Shown in pieces: positions 46,910-64,000 of a stretch of 64,000 bases of DNA (within the stretch, counting starts at the first letter, position 1; every line of letters starts with the position of its first letter). The notes beneath the pieces are model-generated. The model saw nothing but the letters and a program-made list of their open reading frames with translations, was not told the DNA's origin and made no database searches. The DNA is from Lentilactobacillus diolivorans DSM 14421 (lineage in GTDB: Bacteria; Bacillota; Bacilli; Lactobacillales; Lactobacillaceae), in NCBI RefSeq assembly GCF_001434255.1, contig NZ_AZEY01000090.1:281792-345791 (forward strand), in the 5' to 3' direction. The position numbers and the translations under genes are program-made.

Positions 46910-47845
46910 ATGGAAACAGATCAGAAAAATATTGATTGGTTTCTCAAATATCTTCGAAGTGATCGACATTATTCTGTGGACACAATCACTGCATATCAGT
47001 TAGCAATTTCTGAATTTGTGATTTTTTTAGATGAGGTCCCCAATGATCGAAAGTCCTTAATTAAGGTTGATGCATACGATGTCGAGGCCTTTTTAACTAA
47101 TCTGTATGATAAAAAGTATGCTCGTAATTCAATTGCTCAAAAGGTTTCGGCGATCAGATCATTTTATAATTTTATGGTCAAAAATGACGTCATGAAAACC
47201 AATCCATTTGAATATGTACATTTGAAGGCCCAGAATCGGCACTTACCACGCTTTTTCTATCAAAATGAAATGCAAGCGCTTTTCGCGGGTGCCAAGAAGG
47301 GAACCCGAGAGCTTGCACTGCGAAACACAGCCATTTTGGAACTTTTATATGCAACTGGTATTCGAGTTAGTGAATGTGCGGGTATTCGGTTGAAAGATAT
47401 TGATTTTGAGAATAAGATGTTGCTAGTTACTGGAAAAGGTAACAAGCAACGTTATGTACCATTTGGTCAGGAAGCTATGAGGGCGATTCAACATTACCAA
47501 ATTGACTCTCGGACAAAGCTGATGACTAAATTCCATCAAAATCATGACGTCTTGTTCATCAACCATTATGGTCGCCCGATTTCTTCTCGAGGGATTGAAT
47601 ATATTATGGATGAAATAATTCACCAAAGTAGTTTGACAACTAATATTCATCCGCATATGTTAAGGCATACTTTTGCAACAGAGATGCTAAATAATGGGGC
47701 TGATATGCGATCAGTTCAAGAACTTCTGGGACATAGCAGTCTATCAACCACTCAGATTTATACCCATGTAACTAAATCTCACTTGATGAGTGATTATCAA
47801 AAATTTTTTCCAAGAAATAATGAATCATTTAAATCTAAAAAATAA
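46910..47845 (+). CDS. xerC: Tyrosine recombinase XerC
   Basis: XerC acts with XerD at dif to resolve chromosome dimers. It has 311 residues: an N-terminal SAM-like core-binding domain and a catalytic domain with Arg in ATGIRVSE, His-x-x-Arg in [12 protein letters not shown], His in LGHSS and nucleophile Tyr in QIYTHV. It is identified as XerC, not XerD, because it leads straight into hslV-hslU, the codV-codW-codX order of B. subtilis. A dif-like site is about 15 kb downstream. Confidence 0.93.
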
Positions 47846-47859
47846 AAGGGGTATCTTTT

Positions 47860-48402
47860 ATGCCAGTTAAATTTGAAGCAACAACGATTTGTGCAGTCCG
47901 TCATAATGGTCATTTAGCAATGGCCGGTGATGGTCAAGTAACCATGGGTGAAAAAGTCATTATGAAAGGAACTGCTAGAAAGGTCCGTCGAATTTATAAT
48001 GATAAAGTAGTGGTCGGCTTTGCCGGTAGCGTTGCCGATGCATTTAACCTTGAAGAACGTTTTGAAAAAAAATTAAGCCAGTTTGATGGTGACTTGAAAC
48101 GGTCTTCAGTCGAGCTTGCCCAGGATTGGCGCGGTGATCAACAACTTCAAAAATTAGAAGCTTTGCTGATTGTCATGAATGATCATGATCTGTTATTAGT
48201 ATCAGGTTCCGGAGAAGTTATTGAACCCGATGATGATATCCTGGCAATTGGTTCAGGTGGTAATTTTGCCCTTGCTGCGGCGACCGCAATGAAACACCAC
48301 GCTTCGGATATGAGCGCCCGCGAAATTGCGGAAGCAGCTATTCATATTGCCGGAAATATTGATATCTTTACTAACCAACACGTCATTTCTGAAGAAATAT
48401 AG
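47860..48402 (+). CDS. hslV: ATP-dependent protease HslV (ClpQ) peptidase subunit
   Basis: This is the proteasome-like peptidase of HslUV, 180 residues. The chain begins [21 protein letters not shown], so the family Thr-Thr pair (residues 8-9) is preceded by seven residues that must be removed or tolerated. B. subtilis CodW has a similar extension (MSSFHATTIF), but with Ser where this protein has Pro2. '[21 protein letters not shown]' and '[17 protein letters not shown]' confirm the family. Confidence 0.95.
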
Positions 48403-48417
48403 AGAGGAATTCAAAAA

Positions 48418-49833
48418 TTGACAGAATCTACTCAAACACCTAAGCAAATTGTCGAAGTATTAGACCAGTATATTGTCGGTCAGTCTGAAGCTAAAAAGGC
48501 TGTGGCCGTTGCTCTCCGTAATCGGTATCGACGGATGCAATTGACAAAAGCCATGCAGGACGAAATTTCACCTAAGAATTTGTTAATGATTGGACCTACA
48601 GGAGTTGGAAAAACCGAAATCGCCCGTCGACTTGCCAAAATTGTTAATGCACCGTTTGTTAAAGTCGAAGCAACCAAATTTACGGAAGTTGGATATGTTG
48701 GTGGTGATGTCGAATCAATGGTTCGTGATTTGGTTGAAAACGCCATTCAACTTGAGCGTGAAGATGAATATAAGAATGTTCATGTCGATGCTGAAAAACA
48801 AGCCAACAATCAATTGGTTAAATTATTGGTTCCGGCTAAAAAGAAAGAAAATCGTCAAAATGATATGCAGAATTTAATGAGCATGTTTACTCAAATGCAA
48901 AATGGGAAAATGCCTTCTGCCAATGATGATTCCAATCAAGAGGAAGTAACTGATGATATTCGCGAAAAGCGGATGTCGACTGCCGAAAAGCTTCGAGCCG
49001 GCCTTTTGGAAAACGATGAAGTTGAAATTGAAATGGACGACCCTTCGCAACAACTATCAGGTCAAAACAGCATGCTTAATCAAATGGGCATTGATTTGAA
49101 TGATACGTTATCTGGATTAATGCCTAAAAAGAAAATTAAACGAACGGTTCCCGTCAGTGAGGCCCGTCAGATTTTGCTTCGCCAAGCATCCGAGGAATTG
49201 ATTAATAAGGCAGATCTTTATCACAATGCCATTGTTCGCGCTGAAAATACCGGGATCATTTTCATTGATGAGATTGATAAAATTGCTCCTGGAAAATCAC
49301 AAAATAGTGGTGAAGTTTCTCGTGAAGGGGTTCAACGTGATATTTTGCCAATCGTTGAAGGATCCCAAGTTAATACAAAATATGGTCCGGTTAACACAGA
49401 TCACGTTTTGTTCATCGGTTCAGGGGCTTTTGCGGATAGTAAGCCATCTGATCTGATTCCGGAATTACAAGGGCGTTTTCCAATCAGGGTTGAGTTAAAT
49501 GATTTAACTAAAGATGACTTTGTTCGAATCCTAACTGAGCCAACTAATTCATTAACCAAGCAATATATTGCAATGATTGGAACTGATAATATCAAAGTAA
49601 CATTCACCATTGAAGCAATTAACAAAATTGCTGAAATTGCAACTGATGTTAATCATAATACTGACAACATCGGGGCTCGAAGATTGCACACAATTCTTGA
49701 AAAGCTTCTGGAAGACATCCTTTTTGAGGGGCCAGATATGCAAATGGGTGAGATTACCATTACTGAAAAATACGTCGATAATAAGGTCGGCAAACTTGCC
49801 CAGAATAAAGATCTTTCACGTTATATTCTATAA
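48418..49833 (+). CDS. hslU: ATP-dependent protease ATPase subunit HslU (ClpY)
   Basis: This is the AAA+ unfoldase partner of HslV, 471 residues. Walker A GPTGVGKTEIARR near residue 60; an inserted I-domain near 110-230 rich in Gln/Met/Asn; Walker B GIIFIDEIDKIAP; sensor and C-terminal SRYIL-type end (LSRYIL), which inserts into HslV. TTG start after AGAGAGGAA. Confidence 0.96.
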   Translation: MTESTQTPKQIVEVLDQYIVGQSEAKKAVAVALRNRYRRMQLTKAMQDEISPKNLLMIGPTGVGKTEIARRLAKIVNAPFVKVEATKFTEVGYVGGDVESMVRDLVENAIQLEREDEYKNVHVDAEKQANNQLVKLLVPAKKKENRQNDMQNLMSMFTQMQNGKMPSANDDSNQEEVTDDIREKRMSTAEKLRAGLLENDEVEIEMDDPSQQLSGQNSMLNQMGIDLNDTLSGLMPKKKIKRTVPVSEARQILLRQASEELINKADLYHNAIVRAENTGIIFIDEIDKIAPGKSQNSGEVSREGVQRDILPIVEGSQVNTKYGPVNTDHVLFIGSGAFADSKPSDLIPELQGRFPIRVELNDLTKDDFVRILTEPTNSLTKQYIAMIGTDNIKVTFTIEAINKIAEIATDVNHNTDNIGARRLHTILEKLLEDILFEGPDMQMGEITITEKYVDNKVGKLAQNKDLSRYIL

Positions 49834-59425: not shown

Positions 59426-60559
59426 ATGATTGAATGGTCACCCGAAAAGATCAAGGGCTTTCAAAAAGCGTTGCTGAATTGGTATGATCAAAATAAACGC
59501 GATTTACCATGGCGTGTGGATCACGACCCGTATCATGTTTGGATTTCAGAAATTATGCTGCAACAAACCCAAGTTCAAACTGTCATTCCATATTATCAGC
59601 GGTTCATGAAACTATTTCCCACTGTTGGCCAGTTGGCAAAAGCAGACGAATCGGTGCTCTTGAAAGCATGGGAAGGACTAGGGTATTATTCGCGTGCCCG
59701 TCATTTACAAACAGCAGCCCGTCAAATAGTGACCGACTATGGTGGCCAGTGGCCACAGACAATTGATGGTCTTAAATCGCTTTCCGGTGTTGGACCTTAT
59801 ACCGCTGGGGCAATTGCAAGTATTGCTTTTAATCAACCCGTTCCGGCTGTTGATGGTAATGCATTTCGAGTTTTTTCCCGATTATTTAAAATTGATGCTG
59901 ATATTGCTAAACCCCAAACCCGTCACCTATTTGAAAAAGTCATCCAAAATGTTATTTCCAGGGATCGCCCGGGCGACTTTAATCAAGCAATTATGGATTT
60001 GGGTGCTAGCTATATGAGTGCTAAGAATCCGGATACTGTCCATTCTCCCGTTAAACAGTTTGATCAAGCATATTTAGATGGTGAAGAGGATAAGTATCCG
60101 GTTAAGTCAAAGAAAAAACGACCGGTTCAAGTGAACTACTTTGGACTAATCATTCATTCCAGCAAAGGATTTTTATTTGAGCAGCGTCCCAGTGATGGCA
60201 TTTTAAGCCATTTTTTGATGTTTCCATTAATTAAGGCCGACGAATTGGATAATCAAAAGCGATCAGTCCAAAAAATATCAAGTGATGAAATAATTGATAC
60301 TATTTTTCAAAGTTGGGTATCGACTTATCAACTCCAGTTAATTGATCTAGCATTTGTGGACAGTCAAAAAGTATCGCATACGTTTACTCATCAAAAATGG
60401 CAAATCACTTTATTGGAAGCAACTTTACCATCAAATAGTGATTTGAGTTATTTTCCAGGTAAATGGGTTCCCCAAGACCAGTTTTCGACGATTGCATTTT
60501 CAAAGGTTCAATCAAAGATGTGGGCTGCATACCAACAAAAAATACCAAAGACAAATTAA
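59426..60559 (+). CDS. mutY: Adenine DNA glycosylase MutY, lacking the [4Fe-4S] ligands
   Basis: It removes adenine mispaired with 8-oxoguanine. It has 377 residues. Catalytic Glu42 (VWISEIMLQQTQV) and Asp143 (VPAVDGNAF) and the HhH motif (LSGVGPYTAGAIA) are in place. The C-terminal NUDIX-like domain carries the 8-oxoG-sensing VSHTFTH loop. The four cysteines of the iron-sulfur cluster are all replaced (positions equivalent to Met197, Thr204, Ser207, Asp213), and the whole protein has no Cys. AAAAGGAG precedes the ATG. It sits beside msrBA, so three oxidative-damage genes are adjacent. Confidence 0.95.
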   Translation: MIEWSPEKIKGFQKALLNWYDQNKRDLPWRVDHDPYHVWISEIMLQQTQVQTVIPYYQRFMKLFPTVGQLAKADESVLLKAWEGLGYYSRARHLQTAARQIVTDYGGQWPQTIDGLKSLSGVGPYTAGAIASIAFNQPVPAVDGNAFRVFSRLFKIDADIAKPQTRHLFEKVIQNVISRDRPGDFNQAIMDLGASYMSAKNPDTVHSPVKQFDQAYLDGEEDKYPVKSKKKRPVQVNYFGLIIHSSKGFLFEQRPSDGILSHFLMFPLIKADELDNQKRSVQKISSDEIIDTIFQSWVSTYQLQLIDLAFVDSQKVSHTFTHQKWQITLLEATLPSNSDLSYFPGKWVPQDQFSTIAFSKVQSKMWAAYQQKIPKTN

Positions 60560-60569
60560 ATAAATCTGG

Positions 60570-61664
60570 TTACTTATGGTCTTCTTTGTGCAAATCATCC
60601 AAGGCTTTTTTCTGAGTTGTGTCGACAATATGTGTGTATAATCCAGTTGCTTTGGTTGAGGATTGACCAAGTTGAGTGGCAACAAGATGTTCGTTATTGG
60701 TTTCCAAATACAGCTTTGAGGCTAGTGTATGTCTAAGTTTGTGAGGGGTAATTCGCACGTGATTGAACGCTTGCGAGTATTTTGCGACTAGTAGTTCGAC
60801 AGTTGCTGTTGATATTCGCCTAGGTTGGTCCGCCCCTTTTGTTAAAAAGAGGGCAGGGGTAACCTTAGTTGCGTGATAATGTTGCTTGCGAATAGCGAGA
60901 TATGGTTCAATATATGGCATTACCCAGTTCGCAATTGGAACAGAATCCCGTTTGCCACCTTTACGCTGAACCGAAACGGTTGCCTTAGTGAGGTTGATAT
61001 CCTTTACGTTAGCGTTAACAAGTTCAGAGACTCGAATCCCGGTTCCAAGCATTAAAGCGTTGATTGCCACGTCCCGTTGACGGTCACGTTCATACATCTT
61101 GTGAACACGTTTTCCTTTAATTTGTTTCGGATAATCATTCAAAATAAAATCCAGGTAATGAACATCCGCGTTGCCGAGCATTAATTTATCTTTAATATTA
61201 CGAGCACGCGTCTGATAGGTTTCACTATCAGGAACTAAAGCAATTTTTTTCATTACATTTCGATAAAAGTATGGCTCGCCGTCAGCGTTTTCCGATTCTT
61301 CAGTCAGATACCTAAAAAGTGCTGAAAGTGCATTTAACGATCGATTCACGGTTCGATGGGATAGCGTTCCTTGTGGGTTTTTAGCTGTTTGCTTACCACG
61401 ATTGAGTAGAAACGCTTTGTATAACTCCATGTCCTGTTTACGGAACTTTTCAAGGTCAGTTAATGAAATCATAGCCATAGTGGAGGCATTTGTTACACCG
61501 GTTTCAATCATCCAGGCGAAGAAGCGGTGAAATTCATTGAGGTATTGATATAAGGTTGCTGGAGATAAGGGAATCGTTGATTTTTCTAGATAGTAATCTT
61601 GAACATAGTTGGGCATTTCCTGAATAAGTGTCTCATTATTAGCAATGTAGCTGGATTTTTTCAT
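60570..61664 (-). CDS. xerS: XerS-like tyrosine recombinase
   Basis: This 364-residue recombinase resembles XerS, the single enzyme that streptococci and lactococci use at dif-SL in place of XerC/XerD. The typical N-terminal part is present ('LYQYLNEFHRFFAWMIETGV', 'VNRSLNALSALFRYLTEESENADGEPYFYRNVMKK'). Catalytic residues: Arg in GTGIRVSEL, Lys in RKGGKRDSV, HKLRHTLASKLY, LGQSS (Gln in place of the usual His) and Tyr in GLYTHIV. It is on the minus strand, convergent with mutY. A 19-bp inverted repeat with a 6-bp centre lies about 70 bases upstream. Its true target is unproven. Confidence 0.9.
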   Translation of the reverse strand: MKKSSYIANNETLIQEMPNYVQDYYLEKSTIPLSPATLYQYLNEFHRFFAWMIETGVTNASTMAMISLTDLEKFRKQDMELYKAFLLNRGKQTAKNPQGTLSHRTVNRSLNALSALFRYLTEESENADGEPYFYRNVMKKIALVPDSETYQTRARNIKDKLMLGNADVHYLDFILNDYPKQIKGKRVHKMYERDRQRDVAINALMLGTGIRVSELVNANVKDINLTKATVSVQRKGGKRDSVPIANWVMPYIEPYLAIRKQHYHATKVTPALFLTKGADQPRRISTATVELLVAKYSQAFNHVRITPHKLRHTLASKLYLETNNEHLVATQLGQSSTKATGLYTHIVDTTQKKALDDLHKEDHK

Positions 61665-61736
61665 TGTAAAACTCCTTAATTGGATTTAAATAGAAACGGC
61701 TAAAATCATGTTTTTGGGTGGGGCGTTTTTATTTTT

Positions 61737-61780
61737 ATAATATAACTTGATAAAAGGACAATTTTATTAAGTTATATTAT
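61737..61780. repeat. Near-perfect 19-bp inverted repeat with 6-bp centre upstream of xerS
   Basis: The left arm (61737-61755) runs ATAATATAACTTGATAAAA and the right arm (61762-61780) runs TTTTATTAAGTTATATTAT. They are complementary at 18 of 19 positions around GGACAA. The 6-base centre flanked by inverted arms is the architecture of a Xer recombination site. It could instead be an operator of xerS. Confidence 0.8.
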
Positions 61781-61928
61781 ATCATATTATTACCGTTATT
61801 TTGGATAATTAAAGATCAAAATATTTGACCATCAAGTTAAAACTCCATAAGATAGCATAGACGAACAAAAAATAGTCGAAAGAGGTTTTTAAATGAAATA
61901 AGGATTAATAAATTAAGGGGGCTTTCAT

Positions 61929-62795
61929 ATGATGGTTGATATGAAGCAAATTCACGGAATTCAGCTGGAAATATTGAAGCAAGTCGCACGTTTGAGTTCC
62001 AAGCACCATATCAAATATTTTATGACCGGAGGCTCCGCAATCGGCGCCGTCCGGCATCAAGGATTTATTCCGTGGGACGACGATATTGATATCGGATTTA
62101 CTCGACATGATTTTGAAAAGTTTTTAAGAGTTGCACCAGGAGAATTCAGATCAACTAACTATTTTGTTGAAGAAAATCGTTTGAATCCTGCTTATGAATA
62201 TGATTTTGCCAAGGTGATGTTTAAAGGAACTGAAATATTGGAGCGTGGCCGTGAAGAAGCAAAATCATTTAATGGTATTTTTATTGATGTTTTTCCGTTT
62301 GATAAAATGCCCGCAGCCAAACATCAGCAAGTGGCTCAAAGCCAGGCGCTTCAAGCTATCTTACAGGAAATTCGCCGTCGATTTTACCCGGACCTATACC
62401 CAAATATGTCTTTAGACCCTAAATACGTTGACATGACAATAGATCAGCTGTATAAATTACGTTTGCAGATCATGGTTAAATATGATCGTGATCCGTCACT
62501 CGCATACGTCAATTTATCATCACCATATAAATACGGTAAAGAACGAATTCTGCCTGCTGAGATGCATCGTTTTACTGAAATGAAATTTGAAAATTTACGA
62601 GTTCCTGTTTTATCAGCATACGATTCGTACTTAACACGGCTTTATGGTAACTATATGAAATTACCACCGGTTGAGAAACGCATTCAGCGTCACATTTTAA
62701 AAGCTTCCGTTGATAATCCACAAGAACTGTCGGAGAATGAACCAGATAGTCAAATAGAAAAGCATCGAAATGGATTTGAAGCCGAAGCAAGTTAA
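61929..62795 (+). CDS. LicD-family nucleotidyltransferase-fold protein
   Basis: It has 288 residues. The core 'MTGGSAIGAVRHQGFIPWDDDIDIGF' near residues 35-60 is the LicD/nucleotidyltransferase motif with the metal-binding Asp cluster. LicD proteins transfer phosphocholine or similar phospho-groups to teichoic acid or surface glycans. No choline or polysaccharide genes are adjacent, so the acceptor is unknown. AAGGGGG precedes the ATG. It is an isolated accessory gene between xerS and the dif-like site. Confidence 0.87.
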   Translation: MMVDMKQIHGIQLEILKQVARLSSKHHIKYFMTGGSAIGAVRHQGFIPWDDDIDIGFTRHDFEKFLRVAPGEFRSTNYFVEENRLNPAYEYDFAKVMFKGTEILERGREEAKSFNGIFIDVFPFDKMPAAKHQQVAQSQALQAILQEIRRRFYPDLYPNMSLDPKYVDMTIDQLYKLRLQIMVKYDRDPSLAYVNLSSPYKYGKERILPAEMHRFTEMKFENLRVPVLSAYDSYLTRLYGNYMKLPPVEKRIQRHILKASVDNPQELSENEPDSQIEKHRNGFEAEAS

Positions 62796-62898
62796 GCGTA
62801 TAATTTTAGACATTAAAATAACTTTTAGTCATATTTAATAGGAACGTCAGTTGGTCGTATTTTTGACCGTCTGAACGTTTCTTTTTGATTAAGCACTT

Positions 62899-62926
62899 AC
62901 TTCGTATAATATATATTATGTAAAGT
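62899..62926 (+). other. dif: Chromosome dimer resolution site dif (candidate)
   Basis: The 28 bases are ACTTCGTATAA (XerC-type arm), TATATA (centre) and TTATGTAAAGT (XerD-type arm). Against the B. subtilis dif as I remember it (ACTTCCTAGAA, TATATA, TTATGTAAACT) 25 of 28 bases agree, including the whole centre. It is intergenic, between licD and a minus-strand acetyltransferase gene, at the point where gene orientation turns over. XerC is encoded at 46910; XerD would be elsewhere. Confidence 0.85.
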
Positions 62927-63001
62927 AGAATTGAAATAGACATTTAGACTATCAATTACCTGTATTTAAATAATTACCCTCTCTTAGATCTGTTCCAATT
63001 T

Positions 63002-63067
63002 AAATCGTGTTTAATTAAAAAAGATTATCTGATGTATTGGATAATCTTTTTTAATTAAACACGATTT
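63002..63067. terminator. Perfect 28-bp inverted repeat; bidirectional terminator
   Basis: 63002-63029 (AAATCGTGTTTAATTAAAAA...) is the exact complement of 63040-63067, with a 10-base loop. The arms include A6/T6 runs, so it can terminate in both directions. It closes the acetyltransferase gene 4 bases after its stop and shields the dif-like site 76 bases away from that transcription. Confidence 0.85.
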
Positions 63068-63070
63068 GGT

Positions 63071-63514
63071 TCAAATGATTTTATCAAAATGTTCAATATC
63101 AGTTCGTTTTGCAAATTTTAATTTTTGCCAAAATAATTTACCGGCCTGATTATTAATCATTACCACAACTGAAATTTTATGGATGCCAACTTCTTGAAGT
63201 TCTTTAATGACCTTATTAACTAATTGACTTCCAATACCATCGTGTTGGTAATTAGTAGACACTGCTAAATGGTAAATTTTCCCACGACGCCCATCTGTTG
63301 CGCCAAGAATTGTTCCGACAATTTGTTGATCAATTTCTGCCACAAAACAAAATCCTGGATTGAATTTAATTAATCGGGCAATTTCTTCAAAACTGTCCTC
63401 AGATTCTCTCAGATGCATACCCGGTGTTTTTTGCCAAAGCGCATAGGCATCTGGATAGTCTTCAGCAACCATTTTTCGAATTAAAATTTGAGAATCTTTA
63501 TTAATTATTGCCAT
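63071..63514 (-). CDS. GNAT-family N-acetyltransferase
   Basis: It has 147 residues and a single GNAT domain: the N-terminal 'ILIRKMVAEDYPDAYALWQKT', the acetyl-CoA strand 'IYHLAVSTNYQHDGIGSQLV' (pyrophosphate loop HDGIGS) and the C-terminal 'INNQAGKLFWQKLKF'. The substrate is unknown; an RimI-like protein or small-molecule target is possible. ATG 63514 is set by AAGGGAG. It is the only gene after the dif-like site and points back towards it. Confidence 0.88.
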   Translation of the reverse strand: MAIINKDSQILIRKMVAEDYPDAYALWQKTPGMHLRESEDSFEEIARLIKFNPGFCFVAEIDQQIVGTILGATDGRRGKIYHLAVSTNYQHDGIGSQLVNKVIKELQEVGIHKISVVVMINNQAGKLFWQKLKFAKRTDIEHFDKII

Positions 63515-63541
63515 GATGCTCCCTTCATGCGCCATTGTCAT

Positions 63542-64000
63542 ATCGTTAAAGTGAACCCGACCTTCGTTTAAATCGCTTGCCAGTAACCAGTAATTGGAAA
63601 ATTTATTGAGACTTGGATTTTATTTTGAAAAGCAATTTTGGATTCCAGTGATCAATAATTTCCTCGCCAAAATAATATTTTTCGATACTGGGGTTATAAC
63701 ACAATTCAATTTAAATGGATGACACTGACCTCATATTACCATAATGATGAGTGATATGCCCGAACCGGAAAATTATTTGAGATACTTTGGTTCAAATCTG
63801 AAAATTAACGTTGAAAGTACTTCAATAGTTACTCAGACGATATTTGATTAAAATTGCTACCAAAGACAACACCGTTAGTTAACCTGACTATTGGTTTTTG
63901 GTATTGGTAAAACTATGACAATCAAGTTAATTAAAATTTCCCCCAAAAATTGCCCATTTATGCATAAACTAAGTATCGCAATTTTTCTGTGATATGGACG
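63542..64000. other. AT-rich end of the window without a recognisable complete gene
   Basis: I see no full gene in these 459 bases. On the minus strand a frame ending at 63603 reads IELCYNPSIEKYYFGEEI and then DHWNPKLLFKIKSKSQ, about 35 codons back to a stop near 63711. It looks like real protein but has no start or ribosome site, so it may be the 3' remnant of a decayed gene. No promoter stands out. Confidence 0.4.

Follow-up and report, generated by a model that had tools for sequence, protein, structure and literature searches.

The window, by which we mean the whole 64,000-nucleotide stretch of Lentilactobacillus diolivorans DSM 14421 analysed here, carries close to its right end the gene for the tyrosine recombinase XerS, an inverted repeat that is a candidate site for it, and a 28-bp sequence of the XerCD-type dif class, in that order (Table 1). 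XerC, XerD and XerS are all encoded in this one genome, each above its curated cut-off, and xerC adjoins hslV (47860-48402) and hslU (48418-49833). The closest named XerS, among the best 80 of 451 relatives and with near-identical records possibly omitted, is that of Lentilactobacillus hilgardii (86% identity). XerS looks to be under purifying selection when the sequences of L. rapi and L. dabitei are compared (dN 0.007, dS 0.151); in four other pairs dS was saturated or nearly so. The genome also holds two more integrase-domain genes, with equal scores and on small contigs (G000:C103:4416-4973 and G000:C50:5140-5697), which are perhaps copies of one mobile element.

Table 1. Recombinase genes, sites and neighbouring features, in window positions
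Feature	Position	Strand	Description
xerC	46910..47845	+	TIGR02224, 351.1 bits, cut-off 335.15
xerS, tyrosine recombinase XerS	60570..61664	-	364 aa; NCBIfam NF003462 equivalog, 445.6 bits, cut-off 267
Candidate XerS recombination site, difSL-like	61736..61781	-	inverted repeat, 20-bp arms, 6-bp spacer
LicD-like gene between the two sites	61929..62795	+	weak NCBIfam match
Cumulative GC skew maximum	62309	.	between dif and inverted repeat
XerCD-type dif	62899..62926	+	ACTTCGTATAATATATATTATGTAAAGT: 11-bp arm ACTTCGTATAA, 6-bp centre TATATA, 11-bp arm TTATGTAAAGT
28-nt perfect inverted repeat	63002..63067	.	10-nt loop; 76 bp past dif
XerD	contig C38 (L001)		TIGR02225, 384.7 bits, cut-off 329.6

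dif and the switch in GC skew

The sequence-only reading had placed a canonical Firmicute dif in the window, and the 28-mer is found exactly there, identical at 25 of 28 bases to the Bacillus subtilis dif as printed in PMC3025954. It is the single match in the window at three or fewer mismatches (none of 100 shuffles gave any), and a search for other such 28-mers, which that reading had proposed, found none elsewhere in the 3.26 Mb draft genome (109 contigs) at the same threshold. Across 14 Lentilactobacillus loci its conservation is 0.97, against 0.55 in the flanks. It is intergenic, as had been said, overlapping neither of the ORFs 61929-62795(+) and 63071-63541(-) between which it lies; both of these genes look accessory, again in agreement with the earlier description, and xerS is the next gene.

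Cumulative GC skew, computed from the start of the window to 35 kb past its end, switches 0.6 kb from dif and 0.55 kb from the inverted repeat at 61736-61781, which bears out the claim that dif marks the terminus. The 281 kb before the window are G-rich on the plus strand in all eight 10-kb pieces sampled; after it come 20 kb that are C-rich and then the last 15 kb of the contig, which are ambiguous in skew. Of three relatives, G045 and G124 show a clear switch, the peak lying 2.0 kb from the site and at dif, respectively, and G154 has no clear switch at its site. Sequence and setting support the 28-mer as a canonical dif at the replication terminus, at which XerC and XerD would act; by analogy, its predicted role is FtsK-dependent recombination by XerCD.

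The gene between the two sites has a cholinephosphotransferase model, below cut-off, as its sole NCBIfam match, and we take its product to be LicD-like. An ORF of 280-288 aa occupies its position in 9 of the 14 Lentilactobacillus loci and none does in the other five; the gene would be a passenger and not part of the system. The strong bidirectional terminator that had been described beside dif exists as an inverted repeat and is probably such a terminator, but it is not conserved in relatives: perfect arms of at least 17 nt within 400 bp of dif are absent from the 13 other Lentilactobacillus loci, which share the same arm type. A better second dif had been named as the observation that would speak against this one; no second XerCD-type dif is present, but an XerS-type candidate site is. 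Taken as a whole, the sequence-only reading was right about dif and the terminus but overlooked xerS and a second candidate site 1.1 kb off, and we retain dif itself while rejecting dif alone as a full account of the terminus.

The inverted repeat upstream of xerS and its family-wide order

The arms of the repeat (61736-61755 and 61762-61781) are complementary at 19 of 20 positions and enclose the spacer 61756-61761; read along xerS, the candidate site is TATAATATAACTTAATAAAA, spacer TTGTCC, TTTTATCAAGTTATATTATA. Its centre lies 94 bp upstream of the xerS start, a linkage that is looser in some relatives, and dif is 1.1 kb away. The pattern occurs at one place in the genome at three or fewer mismatches, and in 20 simulated 64-kb windows not one AAAA-N6-TTTT repeat reached 12 or 13 arm matches out of 13. 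In the 14 Lentilactobacillus loci, the two arms are conserved at 0.97 and 0.99, the spacer at 0.51 and the flanks at 0.56. A tyrosine recombinase site needs conserved arms, and its spacer must match only that of its own sister copy; thus, conserved arms with a free spacer fit such a site. From its sequence, the repeat is likely the XerS site of Lactobacillaceae and the likely counterpart of difSL. XerS would bind and recombine it, with each inverted arm binding one XerS and strand exchange taking place across the 6-bp spacer. An RNA element at the terminus was rejected, as no Rfam match at gathering score was found in 60000-64000.

Scanning genomes with an alignment of 15 XerS proteins gave 451 relatives, of which the best 80 were taken as named loci: 72 Lactobacillaceae and 8 Streptococcaceae (one being a metagenome bin labelled Lactobacillales). 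In these, dif was scored at four or fewer mismatches and the repeat as AAAA-N6-TTTT with 10 or more of 13 arm positions matching. Within these best 80 of 451, dif is present in 57 of the 72 Lactobacillaceae xerS loci and the repeat in all 57 dif-holding loci, always in the order dif-repeat-xerS, with 510-1168 bp (median 826) from dif to repeat. Measured upstream from xerS, the distance to the repeat is 73-159 bp in 46 of the 57, 408 bp in one and 1.8-8.3 kb in ten; other repeats of equal quality number eight in the 1.34 Mb of the 72 loci. The orientations of dif and xerS are the same in 43 of 57 loci and opposite in 14, so the module sits on either side of dif. G127 speaks against the reading of the repeat as an XerS site next to dif, its dif being downstream of xerS. 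Three of the 15 loci without dif have the repeat and 12 have neither in the stretch covered, which in one of the 12 is cut by a contig end. For some of these 12, a repeat was found by other searches: it is 14.7 kb from xerS and 0.8 kb from dif in L. zymae (G111) and about 15 kb from xerS in S. odoratitofui (G185), while that of Dellaglioa differs at a centre base and lies 522 bp upstream of xerS. Four relatives (G023, G032, G036 and G188) have two to three dif-like matches per genome at three or fewer mismatches, perhaps integrated elements using Xer.

We put at a little over three in four the probability that two dimer-resolution systems, XerCD/dif and XerS with its own site at 61736-61781, adjoin each other at this terminus. 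An ordinary terminus, at which XerCD/dif does everything and the nearby xerS is non-functional or an unrelated recombinase, would explain why XerC, XerD and a highly conserved dif are all present, and the stops in the xerS of some relatives (G015, G208, L207) fit it as well. However, XerS looks to be under purifying selection between L. rapi and L. dabitei, xerS keeps one and the same order with respect to dif in 57 of 57 dif-holding loci among the best 80 of 451, and 12 xerS-bearing genomes keep XerS with neither a dif match nor an XerD over the cut-off, all of which makes an ordinary terminus unlikely. Alternatively, the repeat might be an operator or terminator controlling xerS, with XerS acting on dif itself. 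That 46 of 57 loci have it 73-159 bp ahead of xerS would suit this, and symmetric arms suit any dimeric binding protein. Yet even with xerS 1.8-8.3 kb off (10 of 57 loci) or, in G111, 14.7 kb off, the repeat is still no more than 1.2 kb from dif; it keeps its distance to dif and not to xerS, and is thus not simply a xerS control element. Moreover, it matches difSL in form and place, its A/T-rich arms without a G+C stem would make a poor terminator, and it is kept in xerS-bearing genomes without a dif match (genus g6 and Bombilactobacillus apium). We consider control of xerS a very improbable role for the repeat and rejected it on the ground that the repeat stays by dif when xerS is distant.

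Arm types and the distribution of the site

In a family sample of 201 Lactobacillaceae genomes, 55 of which have XerS over the cut-off, the window arm type is found at two or fewer mismatches in 13 genomes and the CTTTCATTAAAA arm type in 14, all of them with xerS. At exactly three mismatches, the window type appears in six more genomes (one with xerS, five without) and the CTTTCATTAAAA type in ten more (seven with, three without), and backward-pattern controls matched 12 genomes in one arm-pattern search and one in another; these matches in genomes without xerS and in controls indicate that weak matches mean little. By a tally over several pattern searches, the site is present in 48 of the 55 xerS-bearing genomes, and no convincing site was found in the other seven (G130, G049, G132, G022, G127, G086 and G047, the last with xerS cut by a contig end). 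G049 and G132 (L077, L088) share a conserved block of about 30 bases some 180 bp upstream of xerS, in intergenic DNA that has otherwise diverged; going by sequence, it is possibly a divergent XerS site. On a quick XerS tree (66 rows, not bootstrapped, some branches long), arm type goes with the XerS lineage and not with the host; Lentilactobacillus kribbianus, for example, has a Levilactobacillus-type XerS together with that type's arms and side of dif. In genus g6, a CTATAA-centred site, with the same spacer as the Floricoccus difSL, occurs in 31 of 39 xerS-bearing genomes and in none of the 11 others. The backward control of the g6 pattern matches 19 of 50 genomes; weak matches to it are common, and the common spacer CTATAA therefore carries the weight.

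XerS relatives also occur on 516 plasmid records, 383 of them from Enterococcus. With a possible plasmid origin of the module in view, eight of 536 places were examined (none of the eight from Enterococcus), and at none of them is the repeat just upstream of xerS; the XerS of plasmids may act on a different type of site. In one of the eight, L243 (CP033373.1, labelled Limosilactobacillus fermentum DR9 plasmid unnamed2), 4047 bases are 99.65% identical to chromosomal DNA (L112) of G154, a genome placed in another genus (g6) than the label of L243; the record is mixed or mislabelled, or the transfer was recent. Three XerS relatives are in phage records. A phage or integrating element using the repeat was rejected as an explanation, since the two arm patterns have no exact match in viral contigs.

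XerS with and without XerCD/dif

At three or fewer mismatches, dif is found in 169 of the 201 family genomes, and the 55 with xerS divide into 43 with dif and 12 without a dif match. XerD, judged by each genome's best E-value, is over the cut-off in 42 of the 43 and in none of the 12, an association that Fisher values overstate, as genomes of one genus are non-independent; the sole exception among the 43 is the fragmented draft G047. The 12 genomes span five genera (eight from g6, G031 of Dellaglioa, G078 of Bombilactobacillus apium, G086 and G116), and XerS appears sufficient in them, given that they lack a dif match and an XerD over the cut-off. One could extend this to the dual genomes and suppose that activity there is confined to XerS and its own site, with XerCD/dif retained for something else, for instance plasmid resolution. 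Plasmid uses would not require that dif stay nearly unchanged at the skew switch, as it does in dual genomes, and we regard silence of XerCD/dif as the least probable of the readings weighed here.

Under the two-system reading, the genomes without dif bear on how XerCD/dif might decay. The best XerD match in G031, G078, G086 and G116 reaches only E 1e-21 to 1e-40, and the eight g6 genomes have an XerD-like gene at 219-303 bits against a cut-off of 329.6. The four g6 XerD-like proteins examined (L246-L249, from G045, G154, G077 and G177) are all closer to XerD than to XerC. According to PMC5357621, in its description of the catalytic set, the residues are R-K-H-R-H/W-Y; in these four, respectively, the catalytic HxxR has Q, Q, R and Q in place of its His, and three of them lack the GKG-motif Lys, whereas both residues are kept by XerD from the window's own genome and from G205, a g6 genome that bears dif. 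A drifted XerD-like gene with its catalytic His replaced thus persists in all four g6 genomes examined, rather than having been lost. These genes without the catalytic His are still open reading frames in four of four cases, and their products possibly keep a non-catalytic role.

Across the 50 g6 genomes, XerS is present in 39 (broken in one, G208) and never together with dif or an XerD over the cut-off (0 of 39); XerD is over the cut-off in eight, seven of which have dif, and three genomes, at 75-86% completeness, have neither XerS nor an XerD over the cut-off. The wider family does not follow a simple rule. Among the 146 family genomes without xerS, 13 have XerD and no dif match, which indicates that the dif pattern misses some dif sites, and seven lack both an XerD over the cut-off and a dif match. 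Four of these seven, at 94-100% completeness (G034, G131, G155 and G178), are without XerS, XerD over the cut-off and a dif match, and three of them (G131, G155 and G178) belong to genus g9, as do xerS-bearing species. As far as sequence can tell, some relatives seem to do without either system, and these four may have some other way of resolving dimers, or none.

Comparison with known Xer systems and implications

The dual terminus resembles two described systems at once. It shares with XerC/XerD-dif of Firmicutes (CodV/RipX-dif in Bacillus subtilis, as given in PMC3025954) a 28-bp site matching at 25 of 28 positions, the TATATA centre, a single copy at the skew switch and both recombinases, and differs in having a second recombinase with a candidate site. 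With XerS/difSL of streptococci and lactococci, as set out in PMC5357621, it shares an XerS equivalog, a terminus site upstream of xerS, the AAAA-N6-TTTT centre and comparable arms; the difSL arms printed there are TTTCCGAAAA and TTTTCTTGAAA. All eight Streptococcaceae loci carry these arms with 0-2 changes of 21 (exact in two, one change in four, two in two), starting 58-92 bp before the xerS match, with the AAAA-N6-TTTT centre common to them and to the Lactobacillaceae repeat, and no dif was found in the eight at five or fewer mismatches. The window-type arms are less similar to the Streptococcaceae arms than the CTTTCATTAAAA type is. In that account, XerS is the only Xer recombinase of its hosts and the 31-bp difSL is asymmetric, its right arm having an extra base, whereas the window genome also has XerC, XerD and dif, and its arms pair at 19 of 20 positions with no extra base; in addition, the spacer varies between Lentilactobacillus species, and a dif is nearby in 57 of 57 dif-holding loci. 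From its sequence, the terminus would work like XerS/difSL while departing from two of its described features, the sole Xer recombinase and the asymmetric site.

Other systems are more distant. The 2011 survey PMC3025954 places xerS close to the skew switch of Lactobacillus helveticus, which also has xerC and xerD, reports neither dif nor an XerS site there, and suggests that this species is an evolutionary intermediate, whereas both sites lie side by side here in other genera and a CTATAA-centred site is found in g6. XerH/difH of Helicobacter and Campylobacter, as presented in PMC2731167, likewise has a single recombinase often linked to an inverted-repeat site with a variable six-base centre, but that recombinase is unrelated to XerS in the tree given there, and each genome has a single Xer-like recombinase. 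In Lactobacillus delbrueckii ssp. bulgaricus, one terminus also holds two candidate resolution sites, but both opposed copies are the same XerCD-type dif, derived from a large inverted repeat, and XerS is unmentioned where PMC5345009 describes them. PMC8987985, where it treats XerS, assigns it to Streptococcus and Lactobacillus and names no site. Our literature search, with the 2007 XerS paper outside its coverage, found no described XerS site or paired sites in Lactobacillaceae.

FtsK-dependent dimer resolution at division is established for both XerCD/dif and XerS/difSL. By extension, FtsK would trigger XerS at division, each of the two systems would resolve chromosome dimers under FtsK, and both would be active in one cell, the activity of dif and of the repeat being predicted from their sequences. 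The dual terminus is best read as an intermediate from which XerCD/dif decayed repeatedly: the xerS-site module would be a transferable unit that was placed next to dif, with decay of XerCD/dif following in several genera. A wider proposal is tentative, and we think it rather doubtful in its full form, namely that dozens of Lactobacillaceae run two dimer-resolution systems with sites about 1 kb apart, that xerS with its site is a transferable replacement cassette, found on either side of dif, which has repeatedly taken over as XerD lost catalytic residues, and that the division-coupled recombination zone is about 1 kb wide. If this holds, the dif-repeat distance of at most 1.2 kb would point to a zone far narrower than expected.

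These observations bear on how bacteria swap one chromosome-separation system for another, a question for which the dual terminus may offer living intermediates and a candidate site. The genomes in which the swap looks complete would make the handover open to study through simple deletions in food bacteria that are harmless, and recombinase-site pairs with differing arm sequences would be gained as well.
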